Source of the DNA: Nitrospirota bacterium | Lineage (GTDB): Bacteria; Nitrospirota; Leptospirillia; Leptospirillales; Leptospirillaceae | NCBI GenBank assembly: GCA_027314645.1 | Contig: DAHVAL010000002.1 | Coordinates: 124,001-188,000, forward strand | DNA length: 64,000 nt | Direction: 5' to 3' | In this document: positions 36,452-62,375 of the stretch, in pieces | Numbering within the stretch: position 1 is the first letter of the stretch | Layout of the letters: each line of letters opens with the position of its first letter | Made by a program: the position numbers and the translations under genes | The notes under the pieces: model-generated | Seen by the model: the letters and a program-made list of their open reading frames with translations, nothing else | The model's database searches: none | What the model was told of the DNA's origin: nothing

Positions 36452-37900
36452 TCAGGCGGAGAAATCAGTTTTTTCAGCCTCCAGAAAATAGGAGGCGACC
36501 TCTTTACGATACGTTTTGAAGGGGTCGAGCATGTAGAGAATTTCTCCGCTCTCGACCTGGACCCCAAACCATTGGATGATGTAGTCATGGTAGGTGCGTC
36601 CGGAGTGACCCTTCAAAATCCGGTGAACGGCCTCCGACCTTCCCTGGGCCCTGGTCCCTGCCGGGCCATCCTCGGTGGCGGCCCGTACCGCCGTCGGCGA
36701 GACGAGTCGCCGATGCACGCCATCCTCTTCCAAGGGAAAGAAGAGACCTCTGACTTGATCAAGGTCGTGGTAGGCCAAATCCAGACTTTCCATCCACGGA
36801 TCATCCCAAGAAAGGTTTTCAGCCTGCCGGAACGCGTCCAAGAGAACATATTTCTGAGCCCAATCAATCCGGTCGGATACGAGGGAGGGGTCTTTCTTCT
36901 CCAAATCGGTCAAAATTTCCTTCCATGCGTCCAGAACCCAGTCCGTATCGTCGTTCTCTCCCCGAAAAGCCCTTTCCGCCGCGTCAAAAAACCTCCACTG
37001 AATATCGATGGCTCCGACCACGCCCTCGTCGTTGACCTCGAGCGGCCAATTCATCGACATATCATGCGAAATGGCCCGGACGGCTTGAACGGGATCGCTG
37101 ACCGGGATCCAGGGCGCCTGCCCACGTTCGATCAGGCCAAGGACCAGCCTTGTGGTTCCAACCTTCAAGGCAAAAGCGAATTGTGACATGTTGGAATCAC
37201 CCAGCAGCAAGTGAATCCGCCGAAACTGAAGAGGGTCCGCCAAGGGTTCATCCCGCGTGTTCACGATCGAGCGATTCATCTGAACCCATTGATAAAACTT
37301 GTTGACGACATAATCTGCGCGCTGGGATATCTGGAATGGAATCGATCGAATTTCATCGTCGAGCGTAATCAGACTGTCATTAATAATGGACGCTCCGACC
37401 CGTCCGGCCCCGGAAAAAATCTGGCGCGTGGCCAAAAAGGCCACCAGCGGATCAAGCCCCTTTTCATTGAATGGAAAACTTCGAGGAACCGAATAATTTT
37501 CATGGGATCCGAAGGTCGCAAGGGTCTGATGATCGATATTGTTCTTGATGAAGGAAACATTGTTGGAGAGCCCCAACTCGCGGAGGGCATCCTCCAGAAG
37601 CAAGTCCCCTGCCCTGTCCATGGCGACCATGTCATGAATGGTCCCGCATTCCGGGGAGGCATATTCGACATGTCCCATATCGATGTACAATCGTCCCCCA
37701 TTTTTCAGGAATCCGCCGTTTCCCGGAGGCTCGTCATAGGCCCGTTGATGCAAATCGATCAATCCGGTCTTTTTCTCAAAGAACAGATAATCCCGAACCC
37801 GTCGAAAGAGCTCTTCCTGGCGGATCATGGAAGATCCCCGTCCTTCGCTGTCCCTGATCAAGAGCCCATATTCCGTTTCAATTCCGCAGAGGAACCTCAC
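36452..37900 (-). CDS. pafA: Pup/UBact ligase PafA
   Basis: This glutamine-synthetase-fold ligase attaches the small modifier to lysines of target proteins. At 482 residues it starts Gly-Ile-Glu-Thr-Glu-Tyr-Gly. The catalytic region Gly-Gly-Arg-Leu-Tyr-Ile-Asp-Met-Gly-His-Val-Glu-Tyr lies near residues 67-79 and matches PafA (Arg-Leu-Tyr-x-Asp) rather than Dop (Phe-Tyr-x-Asp-His). Asp-Ser-Asn-Met-Ser and the C-terminal helical domain follow. The GTG start overlaps the prcA stop. It is the last gene of the proteasome locus, as in actinobacteria. Confidence 0.92.
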   Translation of the reverse strand: MRFLCGIETEYGLLIRDSEGRGSSMIRQEELFRRVRDYLFFEKKTGLIDLHQRAYDEPPGNGGFLKNGGRLYIDMGHVEYASPECGTIHDMVAMDRAGDLLLEDALRELGLSNNVSFIKNNIDHQTLATFGSHENYSVPRSFPFNEKGLDPLVAFLATRQIFSGAGRVGASIINDSLITLDDEIRSIPFQISQRADYVVNKFYQWVQMNRSIVNTRDEPLADPLQFRRIHLLLGDSNMSQFAFALKVGTTRLVLGLIERGQAPWIPVSDPVQAVRAISHDMSMNWPLEVNDEGVVGAIDIQWRFFDAAERAFRGENDDTDWVLDAWKEILTDLEKKDPSLVSDRIDWAQKYVLLDAFRQAENLSWDDPWMESLDLAYHDLDQVRGLFFPLEEDGVHRRLVSPTAVRAATEDGPAGTRAQGRSEAVHRILKGHSGRTYHDYIIQWFGVQVESGEILYMLDPFKTYRKEVASYFLEAEKTDFSA

Positions 37901-38649
37901 CGGCCCATATCCTCGGGGTGAATGACCTTTTTGACCCTCGCGGGAGAGGTTCTGTCAAGCAACACCCCCTCCCAGCTTTTTTCTTTGAAAAGCCTGGATT
38001 TGCACTCCTCGAGCTTATCGGGGGTGATCACATTGCCCGACCCATCCATTCCCAGCTCTTCCTGCGAATACAAAATTTCCATGAAAACGCGAGATAATAC
38101 CGGAAGAACTTCATCGAGCGTCCGGTCCTTGGGAGGAAGTCTTTCCTCCAGCAACCCGTCCATTTTTGACGACATTTCATCCGAAGGCGCCAGGACAGTC
38201 AGCCCTTTCGAACGTTGCAGGTTTCCATCGAACGACACCTGGAGAAAAAGGTCCTCCTTGGAGGATTGACCGACTTCTGCCAAAAGAACATCGAGAATCA
38301 GAGGGGGAGCCGCAATGTCTTCAAATGCCGCCTTCAATCTGGGAGCGATGCCGAACAGGGCGAGTCGCTCGATGCTTACGTCGAACGCAGAACGCTGGTA
38401 ACCTTCGACATGAGCCATATTCAGGAGCAGTTCCCTCACCGTTTCCAAATCAGCCGGATGGCCGATCCCTCCCATGGCAATCCGATCATATATCTCGTAG
38501 AGTTTCGGATTCTGCCGGTGGAAAGTGGCGAGCAAAATTCCTTCTCTGACGGAAAGGCCCACCACCGGGGTGGCCCGGTTAATTTGTTCGGCAATGTAGT
38601 CCCGCCGCTGGTGGATGGCGTCAATCCAACGGTAGGGCTCATCGAACAC
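37897..38649 (-). CDS. prcA: Proteasome alpha subunit
   Basis: 250 residues forming the outer, gating ring of the 20S core. The N-terminus carries Arg-Arg-Asp-Tyr-Ile-Ala-Glu-Gln-Ile-Asn-Arg-Ala, then Val-Val-Gly-Leu and Lys-Leu-Tyr-Glu-Ile-Tyr-Asp-Arg-Ile-Ala, as in actinobacterial PrcA. There is no catalytic threonine. The GTG start overlaps the prcB end by 11 bases, so the two subunits are translationally coupled. Confidence 0.9.
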   Translation of the reverse strand: MFDEPYRWIDAIHQRRDYIAEQINRATPVVGLSVREGILLATFHRQNPKLYEIYDRIAMGGIGHPADLETVRELLLNMAHVEGYQRSAFDVSIERLALFGIAPRLKAAFEDIAAPPLILDVLLAEVGQSSKEDLFLQVSFDGNLQRSKGLTVLAPSDEMSSKMDGLLEERLPPKDRTLDEVLPVLSRVFMEILYSQEELGMDGSGNVITPDKLEECKSRLFKEKSWEGVLLDRTSPARVKKVIHPEDMGR

Positions 38650-39448
38650 GCATCACCTCATTTCGGTATATGGTGGAAATGGCTTCTTCCTCGATTGTCT
38701 CAAGAGACTCGGGGGTCAGGAGCTTGATGAGAGGCCAAATGGGATCCTGGCCACCGACTCCCCCGGTCGCCGAATCAAAATATGAGGCTGTTTCAAGAAG
38801 CCGGAGAGCCAACAGGATGGCTTCGTCCCTCGACAATTCCCGAAGAGGCCGGGGGCTCCAACGATCAAGGTATCGAAGGATTCCCTGCACTTCGGGCGAT
38901 CCAGACCCCCCGACCGAAAACTCGACCCCTTCAAAATGAGCCCCCAGAATATCGTAGAAAAAGATACGAACGACCCTTGTCGCTCCATCTCGAGCGATGA
39001 ACAGGGGGGCCACCGCCCCGATCCCCTCCACGGCCATTGGAAGATTTTCCTTGAGAAGCTGGGCAAGGATCCGCACCTTTCCTTCGAGGGAAATATCCGT
39101 CAATTGGCTCCTTCGATAGTATTTAAGGGAATGGTCAAGAACCCGCCCCATCTCCAAGGCCATGGCCGGGGATCCTGAAATGGCAAGCAATGCCGAGTCA
39201 TCAATTTCCAAGACCTTATCGACCCGGTTGGACATAATTCTATTCGAGGCGGTTGCGCGACGGTCTCCGGCCACCAGAACCCCATCCTTGAAATGAAAAG
39301 CCAGGATCGTCGTTCCGTGGGCAACCCCCGAAAGGGGTCTTCCCTCGTCACTTTTTATCCTGAACCAGGGCTGATCCTTTTTTATGAGGTCCGGAAAGAA
39401 TCCCGGCCGCGGGAATGAAAACGCCTCCCCCTTATTTTCCATTCTCAA
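38639..39448 (-). CDS. prcB: Proteasome beta subunit (catalytic)
   Basis: 269 residues. A 45-residue propeptide should be cleaved before Thr46 in His-Gly-Thr-Thr-Ile-Leu, exposing the N-terminal nucleophile. Gly-Asp-Arg-Arg-Ala-Thr (with the conserved Asp), a downstream Lys and Ser-Gly-Ser-Pro complete the active-site frame. The start is either TTG at 39448, with GGAAAAG upstream, or ATG two codons later. It lies 36 bases after the modifier gene. Confidence 0.94.
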   Translation of the reverse strand: MRMENKGEAFSFPRPGFFPDLIKKDQPWFRIKSDEGRPLSGVAHGTTILAFHFKDGVLVAGDRRATASNRIMSNRVDKVLEIDDSALLAISGSPAMALEMGRVLDHSLKYYRRSQLTDISLEGKVRILAQLLKENLPMAVEGIGAVAPLFIARDGATRVVRIFFYDILGAHFEGVEFSVGGSGSPEVQGILRYLDRWSPRPLRELSRDEAILLALRLLETASYFDSATGGVGGQDPIWPLIKLLTPESLETIEEEAISTIYRNEVMRVR

Positions 39449-39484
39449 TGGCTTTTCCTTTCCTGTCCCGACCTGTTGACGAAG

Positions 39485-39712
39485 CTATTCTCCCGTCCTC
39501 TGACGATAGCGCTCCGATTGTTTGGGGTCCACCTTCCGCATGCGATCCATCATGCGATCTTTTAATGGCTTGGGATCAAGATTCTTTGGAGATGGTCCCT
39601 CCGGAGTTCCTCCCTTCTTGGAAGGGAAAGGAACCCTCTCCTGTTCATCCAAGCCGATCGCCTCAAGGTGGTGAGAATATAAATGAAAGGGTTGCTCAGC
39701 CGAGAAATTCAT
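39485..39712 (-). CDS. ubact: Pup/UBact-like protein modifier ending in Arg-Thr-Gly-Glu
   Basis: A small, hydrophilic, probably disordered protein. The last residues Arg-Tyr-Arg-Gln-Arg-Thr-Gly-Glu match the Arg-(Thr/Ser)-Gly-(Glu/Gln) tail published for UBact, a Pup-like modifier of Gram-negatives including Leptospirillum. The preceding Met-Arg-Lys-Val-Asp-Pro helix is also typical. The ATG (75 residues) has a strong GGGAGGAGG site. A TTG at 39652 would give a more usual length of about 55 residues. Position between dop and prcB is the same as pup in actinobacteria. A C-terminal Glu needs no deamidation before ligation. Confidence 0.88.
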   Translation of the reverse strand: MNFSAEQPFHLYSHHLEAIGLDEQERVPFPSKKGGTPEGPSPKNLDPKPLKDRMMDRMRKVDPKQSERYRQRTGE

Positions 39713-39849
39713 GACCTTTGCCTCCTCCCTTTAAATAATAGTGGGTTAGACTGGTTGATTGTCCCCTTGGTCAGGGAGCCAGACCGAGAAACGAGGAACC
39801 ATTGCCTTTCCTCTCCGGCGCATTTAGAAGGGATCTTAAAAAGCCCCTC

Positions 39850-41391
39850 TCACAAGGACGCCTTGAGAAGGCGCTCAAGATCTTCCTTGCCCTTGCAACA
39901 CCCGATCTGGTTGCAAAGGAGCAAAACTGCATTCTTATCCAGCTCCTGAAAGAGAGGCAATTTTAGGGTCATCCCATTGGTAAAATGGATCCGCTCCCAC
40001 CCGGCATCCCGGATCTCCCCTTCAAATCGACGAATAATGGCAGCTCTGACCGGCGCCCTTCCATAGGAAGGGGGATGGAGGGTGGCTCGCTCCACATCCC
40101 TTGGATCGGTGAGCCGTCGAATGCGGCCTTCTTCTTCCATAGGCCAAAACATTCCTTCGTCGGAATCGAGGTCATGGTAGGCAAGGTCGAGACTTTGAAG
40201 CCACGGGTCCCCGTCCTGAATCCCCTCTTCCGCACAAAAAAGATCGAGAAGCTGGCGTTTGGCGACCCAATCCACCCGGTCCGAAAGGAGATGCGGGTTT
40301 TTCCTGTAGTCGGAGGACGCCTTCTTCCACTCTTCCAGGACCCAGCGATCTTCCCCTTCATCCGCGAACGCCTCGGCCAACGAAAGGTAAACCTCCAGGA
40401 TCTCCATGGAAGACATTGTTCTTCCATCGATAAGCTTAAGGAGGGCATTTCCATTTTCAGCCCTCGAAACCTGACGGAACGCATGAACAGGATCTTCAAG
40501 AACCGGGGGACCCCATGAGGGGGTTGACGCGATCCCCGCAAGAACAAGCCGCGACATACCGATCTTCATGGCGGTCTGCCACTCCGACATATTCGCATCC
40601 CCGCAAATCAGATGAAGGCGACGGTAGAGCGTTGGTTCGGCGTGAGGTTCATCCCTGCTGTTGACGACAGGACGATGGTGCATGGTGTCCACACCGATCC
40701 GCTCCTCTATGAAATCCGCCCGCTGGGATATCTGAAAGAAACCCTTTGAAAGCCCATCCTCTCCTTCCCGCCCAACCTTCCCCGCTCCAAGAAAAAGGGA
40801 GCGGCACACAAGAAAGGGGGTCATTCCCTCCACGATCCGATCGAACGGGAGGCTCCTGGGAAGAAGATAGTTTTCATGACAGCCATAGCTATGACCATGA
40901 AAATCCGTATTGTTCCGGTAAAGCCCCAGGGATCCCTTCCGGCCGATCTCTTCCTCTCTCGACTTGGCGGCGCTTCTGACAATTTCCGTCCCGGCCCGGT
41001 CATACAGGACAAGATCATGAAGTGTCAGACACTCCGGAGTCGAGTATTCCGGATGGGTATGATCGTTGTAAAAGCGGGCCCCGTTCTGAAGGATGCGATC
41101 GCTCTTTGACTCCCTGAAAGACATAAAGCGACGCCGCTCCGACCGCGAAAATGCCTCCTCCTCTTCGTCCTGGGCCAAACGATCCACTCTGAAGCCCCGC
41201 GCATCAGCGCGTGGATCCTCGGAATCATAAGCCCAAGCGCCAAAGGACTCGGAACGGTAGGCCTTCACAAGGGCCATCGACTCGCTGACAGGATCGGATT
41301 CCTCCTGGTCTTTCCGGATGATCCCAAATTCGGTCTCGATCCCGGCGACGATTTCCCTTGTGGACAGGTTGTGGGTTTTCTTTCCCGGCAT
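39850..41391 (-). CDS. dop: Dop-type deconjugase (PafA/Dop family)
   Basis: 513 residues, a paralogue of PafA. The active region Gly-Ala-Arg-Phe-Tyr-Asn-Asp-His-Thr-His-Pro-Glu-Tyr near residue 105 matches Dop. A longer N-terminal segment before it (Glu-rich, then Arg-Phe-Met-Ser-Phe-Arg) fits the Dop-specific loop. In actinobacteria Dop deamidates Pup and removes it from targets. Here the modifier already ends in Glu, so deconjugation is the likelier job. It lies 17 bases after the ATPase gene. Confidence 0.9.
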   Translation of the reverse strand: MPGKKTHNLSTREIVAGIETEFGIIRKDQEESDPVSESMALVKAYRSESFGAWAYDSEDPRADARGFRVDRLAQDEEEEAFSRSERRRFMSFRESKSDRILQNGARFYNDHTHPEYSTPECLTLHDLVLYDRAGTEIVRSAAKSREEEIGRKGSLGLYRNNTDFHGHSYGCHENYLLPRSLPFDRIVEGMTPFLVCRSLFLGAGKVGREGEDGLSKGFFQISQRADFIEERIGVDTMHHRPVVNSRDEPHAEPTLYRRLHLICGDANMSEWQTAMKIGMSRLVLAGIASTPSWGPPVLEDPVHAFRQVSRAENGNALLKLIDGRTMSSMEILEVYLSLAEAFADEGEDRWVLEEWKKASSDYRKNPHLLSDRVDWVAKRQLLDLFCAEEGIQDGDPWLQSLDLAYHDLDSDEGMFWPMEEEGRIRRLTDPRDVERATLHPPSYGRAPVRAAIIRRFEGEIRDAGWERIHFTNGMTLKLPLFQELDKNAVLLLCNQIGCCKGKEDLERLLKASL

Positions 41392-41408
41392 TTCAGGCGG
41401 ATCCCCGT

Positions 41409-43121
41409 TTATTCTATCGCTCGGATGGATCGGGAGGACAGGGTGTCGGGACGCACTTTTCTAACATCCACGACATCCTGCGCATCAAGGTCGAGAAGGT
41501 TCATCCATTCGAAGGCGATTTCCGTCGGGGGAAGGATGTCTCCTTCGTCATATTCGCATCGCGAAGCCCAAAGAAGATCCTCAAGGGTCAATCCTCCGTT
41601 TTCATTCTCGACTTCCCGAAGAAGGGCTCGTTCCTTGGCCCGGAGAACGATGGATTCAAGAATGGCCCCGCTCACAAGATCAGACCAGTACACAGAAGAC
41701 CGCTTCCCCGACCGGCGAAACACTTCGAAAAGGGAATTCTGTTCGGTTCTGGCAAAAAAACGATCCCGAAAAGCTTCGAGAAGGGCCTCCCGATCGTCCT
41801 TTTGCAATTCTCCCGTGGAAGATTTTTGAATGGGAACATTCGGTCCAAGATGGATCTTTAGAATGTCCAGGGCCGACTCATAGGTCGGCCGGGTGACCTT
41901 GATCTTTCGGTCAATGCGTCCTGGCCGAAGAATTGCCGGATCAATCATCTCAGGCCGGTTGGTCGCCAGGATGACCATCTGGAAGCCTCCTGGTCCTGCC
42001 AAGCCGTCCAGTTCCGCGCAGAACATCGGGACGATGGTATTGTGGATATTAAATCCTCGACCGTTCCGGCGTGTTCCCAGGATCGCTTCGGCCTCATCGA
42101 TAAAGAGGACAGGAAAGTCACCGGATTTCCGGATTTTTTCTCCCTCATCAAAAAGCTCCCGAACGATCCGTTCTGATTCCCCCAACCACATATTCAGAAT
42201 TTCGGGCCCTTTGATATGGAAAAAGACCCCTTTCACCGGCCGTCCTTCTTTCAAGGCCAGTCTATTTGCAATCTCATGGGCGGTCGCTTTCCCGATCAGG
42301 GTCTTCCCGCATCCAGGGGGGCCATGGAGCAGAAAACCCCGAGGAGATTTGAAGGAGTAACGCGAATAGGCCTCCGGATAAAGGAGGGGGTTCAGAATGG
42401 CCTTCTGTATCTCGTGAATGGCGTCTTCTTGGCCGCCAATGGACTCCCACCCGACAGTGGGGACTTCGGCGAGAAGGTAATTTTCTTCCCGCTTCCGGAT
42501 TTTTTCGACCGCGAGCCGCGAGGTGCTGTCAAGACGGACAAAGTCGCCCGTTGACAAGACTTCATCCTTGAGGTGATCGGACCGATCAAGGATCGTCCCA
42601 AGGGTATTGTCCGGACGGTCCGAAGCGATTTCAAGGCGCCCGTCGGGAAACAGTCTTCCAACGCGGACGATGGGCCCTGAAAGATCCGGCCCCACGGTTC
42701 CCAGAATGGAAAGGGCCTCGTTGAGACGAACCCGCTCTCCTTTTTTCAGGGATTCGCTCGGGACCCTCGGATCGACCGTCGCCTGATAATCTCCTCCCCC
42801 GACCGAAACCCAGACCAAGCCGTCGTCCGTCGCTCCGAGACAGGTTCCGATCCGAAAAGCCGGTTTGGTCACTTTTTCGAGAACTTCAGAAAGGCGAGAC
42901 GCTTCATTCTGCATACGCTGCCATTCATTCTCGAATTCCTGAAGCTTCTTTCTGATCCTGTAGGCTTCCCGCATTTCCTCTTCCCGCCCATCAAGAAGGC
43001 GGATCAGCCGCTCCATCGCCGTCACAAGATCGGAAAAAGGTTCCACCCCTTGTCCTTCTTTTTTGTCGCTGCGCGTTTCGGATTCATTGTTTTTTCGATA
43101 AAAGGGGTCGGTCTTGTCCAT
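41409..43121 (-). CDS. arc: Proteasome-associated AAA ATPase (ARC/Mpa)
   Basis: 570 residues: an N-terminal coiled coil (about 30-80), tandem OB domains (about 85-220) and one AAA+ module with Walker A Gly-Pro-Pro-Gly-Cys-Gly-Lys-Thr near residue 270, Walker B Leu-Phe-Ile-Asp-Glu-Ala and a second region of homology with Arg-Pro-Gly-Arg-Ile-Asp. It unfolds modified proteins and feeds them to the 20S core. The C-terminus ends Ser-Ile-Arg-Ala-Ile-Glu, without the Gln-Tyr-Leu (HbYX-like) docking tail of Mpa. Confidence 0.94.
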   Translation of the reverse strand: MDKTDPFYRKNNESETRSDKKEGQGVEPFSDLVTAMERLIRLLDGREEEMREAYRIRKKLQEFENEWQRMQNEASRLSEVLEKVTKPAFRIGTCLGATDDGLVWVSVGGGDYQATVDPRVPSESLKKGERVRLNEALSILGTVGPDLSGPIVRVGRLFPDGRLEIASDRPDNTLGTILDRSDHLKDEVLSTGDFVRLDSTSRLAVEKIRKREENYLLAEVPTVGWESIGGQEDAIHEIQKAILNPLLYPEAYSRYSFKSPRGFLLHGPPGCGKTLIGKATAHEIANRLALKEGRPVKGVFFHIKGPEILNMWLGESERIVRELFDEGEKIRKSGDFPVLFIDEAEAILGTRRNGRGFNIHNTIVPMFCAELDGLAGPGGFQMVILATNRPEMIDPAILRPGRIDRKIKVTRPTYESALDILKIHLGPNVPIQKSSTGELQKDDREALLEAFRDRFFARTEQNSLFEVFRRSGKRSSVYWSDLVSGAILESIVLRAKERALLREVENENGGLTLEDLLWASRCEYDEGDILPPTEIAFEWMNLLDLDAQDVVDVRKVRPDTLSSRSIRAIE

Positions 43122-43962: not shown

Positions 43963-43992
43963 TTGCTTGAATCTGCTCATTTGTCCTATTGT
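43963..43992 (+). promoter_or_regulatory. candidate promoter for the RuBisCO-like gene
   Basis: TTGCTT (43963-43968) and TATTGT (43987-43992) are 18 bases apart, about 60 bases before the start, in the 123-base divergent gap with the oxidoreductase gene. Confidence 0.35.
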
Positions 43993-44056
43993 AAGGGGAA
44001 TAACTCAAAATTCCCATATCCTTCAACCGATCGCCAAGAGTAAAGGACACGTTTCC

Positions 44057-45238
44057 ATGAGTAAAATGGAACTGATCAAGACGACCTATACGATCCGTTC
44101 GGCCGACGTTCCCAAAGCCGCCGCCCTCATTGCCCGGGAAATGAGTCTGGGGGTAAAGAAAACCTCCTATGAGACGGCTGGAACGGAATCCTTTGCCGCC
44201 AAACCGTTTACCGTCAAAGAAGGAAAGAAAAAAGCCGTGATCGAGATCATGGTCCCTTCCCAGAGGATTTCCTCGGGGTACGGATTGGTGCTGTCCATTG
44301 CGGGTGAAATCAGTTGCCTCAATATTCTCAAATCGATCGAACTGACAGACTTCGATCCCCCCGCCAAGCTCCTCTCCAGGCTCCCGGGTCCCCAATTCGG
44401 TCTCGAAGGGATCGCCGCCAGGCGGAATGCCCCCAAGCGTCCTCTTTTCATTACCGTGCTGAAACCTTCCCAGGGGCTGACGATCGATGAGTATGCCCAT
44501 ATCGCGTTCGAGAGTCTCGTGGGAGGCATGGACGTCGTCAAATCGGATGAACTTCTTCAGGAACCCGAGGGCGATTATCTTAAACGCCTTCAGGCGACCG
44601 TTGAAGCGGCAAAAAGAGCGGAAGAGGAGACGGGTGAGCCCAAGTGGGTCATGATGCATACCGTGGACAGACCGCAAGCCATGATCGACCGGTATCTTAA
44701 AGGGTCCTCGGCAGGGGCCAAGATTGCCATGCTGAGCCCGGCGGCCAGCGGCTTCCCGATGCTCGAAGAGCTGGCAAGGCACTCCCAGGTCCCCATCATG
44801 GCCCATATGGCGACCAGCGACTGGCTATGGCAAAAACATGGGATGTCCGTCCGATCCTGGGCCAAATTCATGCGCATTCTCGGTTCCGACCTCATCCTCT
44901 ACCCCGCCCTTTCCGGAACCCTCAAGGCCAAAAAATCCCTCCTCAAGGATGTCTTGGAGGTGTGCCGAATGCCTCTGGAAGGGATGAAACCTTCGATGAT
45001 CGCCGTCGGTGGGGGAATGCATGCGGGCACCCTGGGCGTTCATGCCGATCTTTTCGGGCCCGATTTTGCCTACCTCTGTGGTGGAGGGGTCTGCGGGCAC
45101 CCCGATGGAGCCCGGGCTGGAGGACAATCGATTCGCCAGGCCTGGGACGCCTGGTCCCAAGGCATCTCCCTTGAAAAGTACCGGAAGAAGCACAAGGCCT
45201 TGGACCGGGCGCTGGCAGCGTTTGCGGTCTATGTGTGA
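44057..45238 (+). CDS. RuBisCO-like protein (form IV)
   Basis: 393 residues from the ATG with AAAGG upstream. The large-subunit fold is recognisable: Thr-Val-Leu-Lys-Pro-Ser near residue 138, and Gly-Gly-Met-Asp-Val-Val-Lys162-Ser-Asp164-Glu165 matching the carbamylated-Lys/Asp/Glu metal site. A Gly-Gly-Gly phosphate-type loop lies near residue 320. Loop 6 with its catalytic Lys and other carboxylase residues are not recognisable, so CO2 fixation is unlikely. Known form IV proteins act in methionine salvage or unknown sulfur reactions. Leptospirillum is known to carry one. Confidence 0.92.
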   Translation: MSKMELIKTTYTIRSADVPKAAALIAREMSLGVKKTSYETAGTESFAAKPFTVKEGKKKAVIEIMVPSQRISSGYGLVLSIAGEISCLNILKSIELTDFDPPAKLLSRLPGPQFGLEGIAARRNAPKRPLFITVLKPSQGLTIDEYAHIAFESLVGGMDVVKSDELLQEPEGDYLKRLQATVEAAKRAEEETGEPKWVMMHTVDRPQAMIDRYLKGSSAGAKIAMLSPAASGFPMLEELARHSQVPIMAHMATSDWLWQKHGMSVRSWAKFMRILGSDLILYPALSGTLKAKKSLLKDVLEVCRMPLEGMKPSMIAVGGGMHAGTLGVHADLFGPDFAYLCGGGVCGHPDGARAGGQSIRQAWDAWSQGISLEKYRKKHKALDRALAAFAVYV

Positions 45239-60544: not shown

Positions 60545-60578
60545 CAAGAAGCGTACCCCTTGAAGGAGGAACCTGTTG

Positions 60579-62375
60579 ATGAAGCCGTTCTACAAGAATC
60601 TTGCCCTCTGGTTGATTATCGGGATTGTCGTGTTTCTCGTGTTTGACATGTTCCAGTTCCGCCAGCCTTCCTCCCAGAACCTGATTTACTCCGACTTCAT
60701 TTCCAAGCTGGATTCGAATCAGATCAGCGAGGTGACCATTAAACAAAATCACATCAACGGCGTCATGAAGGATGGATCGCATTTCCAAACCTATGCCGCC
60801 AATGATCCGAATCTGGTGGAAGAACTTCAGAAGAGAAACGTCCGCATCATCGCCGTTCCTCCCGGAGAAAGCCCCTGGTATATGAGTCTTCTGATCTCGT
60901 GGGGACCGATCATCGTCCTGGTCCTCCTATGGGTCTTTTTCATGCGCCAGATGCAGACCGGCGGGAACAAAGCGATGTCGTTCGGAAAATCGCGCGCAAA
61001 AATGATGACGGAGGACAAAAAGAAAATCACCTTCGCGGATGTTGCCGGAGTCGACGAGGCGAAAGAGGAGGTCTTTGAAATCGTCGAATTTCTGAAAGAT
61101 CCCTCCAAGTTTCAGAGGCTCGGAGGACATATCCCGAAGGGAGTCCTTGTTGTCGGCCCCCCTGGGACGGGAAAGACTTTGCTCGCGAAGGCGATCGCCG
61201 GAGAGGCGGACGTTCCGTTTTTCCATATCAGCGGTTCCGATTTTGTCGAGATGTTTGTCGGCGTCGGAGCATCCCGCGTCCGCGATCTTTTCGAGCAGGG
61301 AAAGAAAAATGCTCCCTGCATCATCTTTATCGATGAAATTGACGCGGTGGGACGCCACCGGGGGGCGGGACTCGGGGGAGGTCACGATGAGCGTGAGCAG
61401 ACCTTAAACCAGCTCCTCGTCGAAATGGACGGCTTCGAAAGCAATGAAGGGGTCATTCTTATCGCCGCGACAAACAGGCCGGATGTTTTGGACCCCGCTC
61501 TTCTGAGGCCAGGGCGCTTTGATCGTCAGATCATTGTCGGAAAGCCGGACCTGAAGGGGCGTATCAAAATCCTGGAAGTTCACACGAAAAAGATCCCCCT
61601 CGACTCCTCGGTCAATCTTGAAACCGTTGCCCGCGGCACCCCCGGTTTTTCGGGAGCCGATCTGGCCAACCTCGTCAACGAGGCGGCCCTTCTTGCGGCG
61701 CGTCGCGACAAGAAGGTTGTCGAGATGAGCGAGTTCGAAGATGCCAAGGACAAGGTGCTTATGGGAGTCGAACGCAAGTCGATCCTCATCACGGAGGACG
61801 AAAAGCGCGTGACGGCTTTCCACGAGGCCGGCCACACCCTTGTGGCCAAGCTCATTCCCGGGACCGATCCGGTTCACAAGGTCTCCATCATCCCGAGAGG
61901 AAGAGCCCTCGGGGTCACCCAACAGCTGCCGACCGATGACCGCTACACCTATGGCAAGGACTTTCTTCTCAACAACATTGCCATCCTCATGGGCGGACGT
62001 GTCGCGGAAGAACTGGTGACTCATTCGATCACCACCGGAGCGGGGAACGACATTGAACGCGCCACCGATCTCGCGCGAAAAATGGTGTGTGAGTGGGGCA
62101 TGAGCGATAAGCTTGGCCCCATCACCTTTGCCCAGAAGAACGATGAGATCTTCCTAGGGCGAGAAATGTTCCAGCGGCGGGACTACAGCGAATCAACCGC
62201 CATCGATATCGACCGGGAGGTGAGCGGCATCATCTTCGATGCCTACGCCAAGGCCAAAAGCCTGATCTCGGGACAAATGAAGGCCCTGACCAATATCGCC
62301 GAAGCTCTCCTGGAAAAAGAAACGCTCGATTCTCCCCAAATCGACGCCCTTATCCAGGCGGCCAATGCCCCCTGA
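60579..62375 (+). CDS. ftsH: ATP-dependent zinc metalloprotease FtsH
   Basis: This membrane AAA+ protease degrades membrane and regulatory proteins (in Gram-negatives including LpxC). 598 residues. Two membrane segments (about 9-25 and 100-120) flank a small periplasmic domain. The AAA domain has Gly-Pro-Pro-Gly-Thr-Gly-Lys-Thr near residue 195, and the zinc site is His415-Glu416-x2-His419. The ATG follows AAGGAGG. A TTG one codon earlier is possible. It overlaps folP by 11 bases. Confidence 0.98.

Follow-up and report, generated by a model that had tools for sequence, protein, structure and literature searches.

Bacterial proteasomes are usually described as a single Pup system, best known from actinobacteria. 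The window examined here is a stretch of 64,000 nucleotides (nt) from contig DAHVAL010000002.1 of the Nitrospirota assembly GCA_027314645.1. On its minus strand it carries a six-gene locus in the order ATPase, Dop, modifier, PrcB, PrcA and PafA, in which the modifier is UBact. The UBact conjugation-proteasome system was named in 2017 (Lehmann et al. 2017, BBRC 483:946, as cited in PMC12751074), and a pupylation/proteasome locus in Leptospirillum has been published (De Mot 2007; PMC2588565; PMC3511204; PMC4254994). The original prediction rightly called the system a known one. It also stressed the occurrence in a Gram-negative, which is not news (PMC2588565, PMC3511204, PMC4478699).

With the UBact system the window locus shares the modifier family, the RTGE/RTGQ tail, the PafA, Dop, ATPase and 20S neighbours and the Nitrospirota host, and no difference in kind was found. 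The published Leptospirillum locus comes from the same organism family and has the same gene order, but those papers treat it as Pup, whereas the genome of the window has two loci, of which the one in the window is of UBact type. The actinobacterial Pup system (Mycobacterium tuberculosis, Corynebacterium glutamicum) has in common with the window a GS-fold ligase and depupylase, a coiled-coil/OB/AAA ATPase, a 20S core and, as predicted, the gene order. It differs in the end of the modifier (TGE in the window, GG[EQ] in actinobacteria), the end of the ATPase (R-x-I-E versus GQYL), position 119 of the alpha pocket (Ile versus Glu) and the pore loop (MWLG versus K[FY]VG). The window locus belongs to a known kind; its interest lies in the paired systems and in a testable docking code. 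UBact was named only in passing in the literature searched, which yielded nothing on coexisting Pup and UBact or on an altered ATPase tail; the search did not include the original 2017 UBact paper and is therefore no proof of absence.

We consider it likely that the window locus is a complete UBact pathway standing beside a canonical Pup pathway, and that the two use separate docking codes and are at least partly insulated from each other. The six genes of a complete UBact/Pup-type proteasome locus lie where they had been predicted, and curated family models agree:

43121-41409, minus strand: proteasomal ATPase (ARC/Mpa-like) of UBact type, 570 amino acids; TIGR03689 371 bits (cut-off 505), Pfam OB-N, OB-C and AAA
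41391-39850, minus strand: Dop-like depupylase/deamidase, 513 amino acids, Dop-loop region kept; TIGR03688 410 bits (cut-off 492), Pup_ligase 494 bits
39712-39485, minus strand: UBact modifier, 75 amino acids, C-terminus ERYRQRTGE; NF033388 63 bits (cut-off 35), PF20513 55 bits (cut-off 27.8)
39448-38639, minus strand: PrcB with propeptide, catalytic Thr1 after HG; TIGR03690 150 bits (cut-off 192)
38649-37897, minus strand: PrcA, 250 amino acids, divergent; TIGR03691 57 bits (cut-off 139)
37900-36452, minus strand: PafA-like UBact ligase (GS fold), 482 amino acids; TIGR03686 310 bits (cut-off 551), Pup_ligase 421 bits
43229-43201, minus strand: TTGACG-17-TAGGAT, a candidate sigma-70 promoter ahead of the ATPase and the operon; chance-level in the consensus scan, conserved in three close relatives

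The modifier exceeded both the NCBIfam and the Pfam cut-off for UBact, the sole family that it matched in these scans, with no match to the Pup families PF05639 and TIGR03687. It ends in the predicted Arg-Thr-Gly-Glu rather than in GG[EQ]. The five partner proteins all fell well below their NCBIfam equivalog cut-offs. Among solved structures, the ATPase is closest to mycobacterial Mpa, and PrcA and PrcB to the actinobacterial 20S. Dop matched Dop 4b0r best (E 1e-90), as did PafA, with PafA 4b0t close behind. The ATPase has an N-terminal helix ahead of its OB and AAA domains, and its model aligned with Mpa 7px9 over 447 residues (Z 32); the large root-mean-square deviation (rmsd) of 16.2 in this model comparison probably comes from domain placement. 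PrcA is the most divergent of the window proteins, and its model (predicted local distance difference test, pLDDT, 91) matched M. tuberculosis PrcA 3mfe with Z 25.4 and rmsd 2.1 over 207 residues.

The locus looks functional on its sequence: all six frames are open, catalytic residues are kept and there is no sign of decay. Both GS-fold enzymes belong to the Pup-ligase family, and the Walker motifs of the ATPase are intact (Walker A GPPGCGKT, Walker B FIDE). The catalytic Thr of PrcB is present as claimed, although its number, 46, applies only if translation starts at TTG 39448 (269 amino acids); from ATG 39442 (267 amino acids) it is residue 44. The only observation in keeping with a decaying or silent locus, retained by chance, is that PrcA and PafA diverge from actinobacterial models. 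We give this explanation hardly any credence in view of the six open frames and of the catalytic residues kept in relatives, where PrcB Thr1, Asp17 and Lys33 occur in 30/30 UBact-type sequences. Proteasome transcripts reported at 0.44-1.45% for a Leptospirillum in acid mine drainage (PMC4478699, in a passage that names no locus of origin) also speak against it.

A whole-genome search for ligase and proteasome families revealed that a different contig of the same genome carries another complete locus (L160 6341-12799, equal to G000:C18:15340-21798):

L160 6341-8149: ATPase, ending in GHYL
L160 8146-9750: Dop, 484 bits against a cut-off of 492
L160 9747-9947: Pup, ...DEVLEKNAASFVKSFIQKGGQ, C-terminus QKGGQ
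L160 9951-10754: PrcB, above the NCBIfam cut-off
L160 10757-11449: PrcA, above the NCBIfam cut-off
L160 11459-12799: PafA, 534 bits against a cut-off of 551

At this locus the ATPase and Pup also exceeded their NCBIfam equivalog cut-offs, and Dop and PafA fell just below. The Pup gene is the single Pup match in the genome. The six functions stand in the same order as in the window, which differs by UBact, by its RAIE tail and by its remoteness from actinobacterial subunits: similarity to solved actinobacterial proteins at L160 and in the window, respectively, was 226 and 31 bits for PrcA, 572 and 279 bits for the ATPase, and 370 and 212 bits for PafA. The original prediction is thus supported yet incomplete, having overlooked both this Pup locus and an ATPase tail that is neither GQYL nor HbYX. 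Two complete, divergent tag-proteasome systems in one genome provide a natural experiment in mutual recognition among tag, ligase, unfoldase and core.

The two modifiers also co-occur more widely. Among 245 sampled Nitrospirota genomes, UBact was found in 83 and Pup (PF05639) in 112. Of the UBact genomes, 76 also had Pup (Fisher p 5e-27, a value that overstates independence since the genomes are related); the other seven gave no Pup match. The pup gene itself is not always placed as at L160. It lies about 130 kilobases away from a Dop/PrcB/PrcA/PafA cluster in one Nitrospira genome (L162, G140:C1:4122221) and is solitary in the stretches read from several other genomes (L177, L179, L180, L181, L184 and L185).

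To compare docking elements, we examined the ATPase C-termini. Mpa opens the 20S gate by means of its C-terminal GQYL (PMC8142254, PMC9599533). Each of the 19 Pup-type ATPases has GHYL as its last four residues, which resembles this known docking tail and was found in no UBact-type ATPase read. The window ATPase ends in ...SIRAIE, without a GQYL/HbYX tail. UBact-type ATPases of Leptospirillaceae end in R-x-I-E, the R(-4), I(-2) and E(-1) being the same in all 16 distinct tails while the adjoining linker varies, and those of Nitrospirales end in a near-invariant x-[IV]-[IV]. The pore loop also separates the types (M-W-[LV]-G in UBact-type and K-Y-V-G in Pup-type ATPases).

The alpha-ring pocket that would receive the tail varies along with it. 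In the M. tuberculosis complex the Tyr of the tail forms a bond with Arg26 or Glu119 and the Gly one with Asp144/Ser146, and Lys52 can bond the carboxylate (PMC8142254, PMC9599533). The pocket [RK]26-K52-E119-D144-[SN]146 was present in 18/18 Pup-type systems with PrcA. In UBact-type alpha subunits K52 (30/30) and D144 (29/30) were retained, and E119 was replaced by I, L or V in 30/30; window PrcA keeps K52 and has Ile in place of Glu119. Arg26 tracked the tail in the UBact type, being kept with a terminal Glu (17/17) and gone with a terminal Ile or Val (12/13). These observations suggest that the new tail is a docking element and that the alpha pocket changed alongside it. Because the contrasts are phylogenetically few, we offer this docking code as a well-motivated hypothesis and not as proof. 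The GQYL tail is perhaps not the only route by which a bacterial ATPase docks on a 20S core.

The missing GQYL/HbYX and the final 11 residues of the window ATPase, which are unordered in the model, would also fit an ATPase without any docking tail, with another factor opening the 20S gate or with the ATPase serving chiefly to unfold substrates or to assist depupylation. We consider this improbable, given the invariance of R-x-I-E and the near-invariance of x-[IV]-[IV]. In genome G130, moreover, the tail is gone where 20S genes have been deleted: at its UBact locus (L050 6189-6731) a deletion relic joins the 5' part of prcB, in frame, to the 3' part of prcA, and the ATPase ends in APKN, while a full Pup-type locus (L161) is retained. 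Actinobacteria without 20S genes similarly have ATPases without the docking motif (PMC3511204). A search for the activator Bpa/PafE found no match, but its controls gave none either, so it cannot establish absence.

We propose that, in the pathway of the window, PafA would link UBact through its terminal Glu to lysines on target proteins and Dop would take the tag off again. The UBact ATPase would grip the tag by its N-terminal coiled coil and thread the target into the PrcA/PrcB 20S core for degradation. The second pathway would run alongside and have a Pup, Dop, PafA, ATPase and 20S core of its own. Each ATPase is predicted to dock its own core, the Pup ATPase through the GHYL tail and a Glu119-type alpha pocket, and the UBact ATPase through R-x-I-E (Leptospirillaceae) or x-[IV]-[IV] (Nitrospirales) and an Ile/Leu/Val119-type pocket. 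The difference in C-terminal docking code makes at least partial insulation of the two circuits probable. A stricter version, which we hold only tentatively, is that a single cell runs two orthogonal circuits in which the UBact branch swapped HbYX/GQYL for R-x-I-E or x-[IV]-[IV] together with a matched pocket, and neither ATPase works with any 20S but its own. The named tails and pocket residues are directly testable in vitro.

Several points weigh against insulated pairs. Pairing of Pup and UBact is not obligatory: G019, G061 and G071, from one Leptospirillaceae genus, have UBact without a Pup match, and G019 is a single contig that is 99% complete. Mixed complexes, with the UBact ATPase on the Pup core, may be compatible with the sequences. 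The tail and pocket differences come to about two phylogenetic contrasts and one loss event; they mark clades, besides possibly reflecting co-adaptation. UBact might thus work without insulation, with interchangeable ATPases, cores and ligases and with tail differences that reflect neutral drift in an ancient second copy. The pocket residues K52 and D144, common to both types, and the similar C-terminal ends of Pup and UBact favor such exchange. We regard it as unlikely, since the last tail residues are invariant while the linker varies, and Glu119 is replaced in 30/30 UBact-type but in 0/18 Pup-type alpha subunits.

The phylogeny of the GS-fold enzymes bears on the age of the two systems. PafA and Dop of the UBact and Pup types formed four separate supported clades, which argues that the window system is no recent copy of the Pup system. 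In a 70-row tree with long branches and two actinobacterial references, UBact-type Dop and PafA grouped together, apart from the Pup type and actinobacteria (99/99). An alternative topology with one Dop clade gave a marginal p of 0.044, and a smaller tree without Pup-type Dop recovered the usual Dop/PafA grouping. With branches this long and so few references, we do not claim independent origins of the ligase. In a published tree, the pupylation genes of Nitrospirae derive from actinobacteria and postdate a single ancient Dop/PafA duplication (PMC7947786). A Nitrospinota contig carrying a UBact locus (L074) nested within Nitrospirota in the Dop/PafA tree, a placement which suggests transfer or mis-binning.

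The six-gene order was conserved across Leptospirillaceae and Nitrospirales in nearly all loci read. Degeneration of the modifier tail in relatives, which the original prediction had named as a possible refutation, was looked for and not seen: 147/147 UBact open frames, some counted twice, end in [RK]QRTG[EQ] (116 RQRTGE, 27 RQRTGQ and 4 KQRTGE). Tails ending in Glu and Gln alternate even within Leptospirillaceae, and actinobacterial Pup likewise alternates between the two (PMC3511204). Because the terminal Glu of window UBact is already encoded, deamidation would be unneeded, and by analogy with the Corynebacterium case (PMC3511204) the main role of the window Dop is probably tag removal.

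Some genomes of the same genus gave no UBact match. Two fragmented ones, G098 (81% complete) and G103 (71%), have a third gene of the ligase family, apparently of UBact type, which makes missing sequence the likely cause of the absence of UBact there. G100 (89% complete) has two ligase-family copies only, both within a Pup-type locus, and G092 (66% complete) has none. One Nitrospira locus contains a partial second Dop-UBact-PrcB-PrcA copy (L131 7959-10702), which may be a tandem duplication or an assembly chimera.

Within the window locus, the predicted gene overlaps occur at PrcB/PrcA (11 nt) and PrcA/PafA (4 nt) and nowhere else; gaps of 17, 137 and 36 nt separate ATPase from Dop, Dop from the modifier, and the modifier from PrcB. 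The 137-nt gap is unusually long, exceeding that in sixteen relatives, where the UBact start probably sits about -20 to +51 nt relative to the Dop stop. A ribosome-binding site, GGGAGGAGG, lies 8 nt upstream of the modifier start. The claim of one good promoter fared less well in the consensus scan, which returned 5 promoter-like sites in the region against 4.7 expected by chance. The candidate operon promoter is nevertheless plausible, because it is kept in three close relatives (L041, L042 and L043) as TTGACG-17/18-TA[GC]GAT. A separate promoter inside the Dop-UBact gap was also considered, and the sequence scan gave it no support.

UBact homologues of 53-55 amino acids (e.g. ...FERMRKVDPKQSEKYKQRTGE) were present on eight IMG/VR viral contigs (L142 6388-6546, L143 3809-3967 and L194-L199). 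No ligase, depupylase, ATPase or 20S gene was found on any of the eight, and no UBact match was found in the named phage genomes of INPHARED. On the contigs whose genes were read, the homologues adjoin phage-type genes for dNMP kinase, C5 methylase, Tet/JBP oxygenase, exonuclease, alpha-glucosyltransferase and homing endonuclease. The viral protein is possibly a phage-borne decoy or hijacker of the host UBact ligase.

Elsewhere in the window, an FtsH protease of the ordinary kind (60567-62375, plus strand; 881 bits, cut-off 600) gave a weak proteasomal-ATPase score in a loose search. A RuBisCO-large-chain-like protein adjoins the operon (43967-45238, plus strand; Pfam RuBisCO_large 137 bits).

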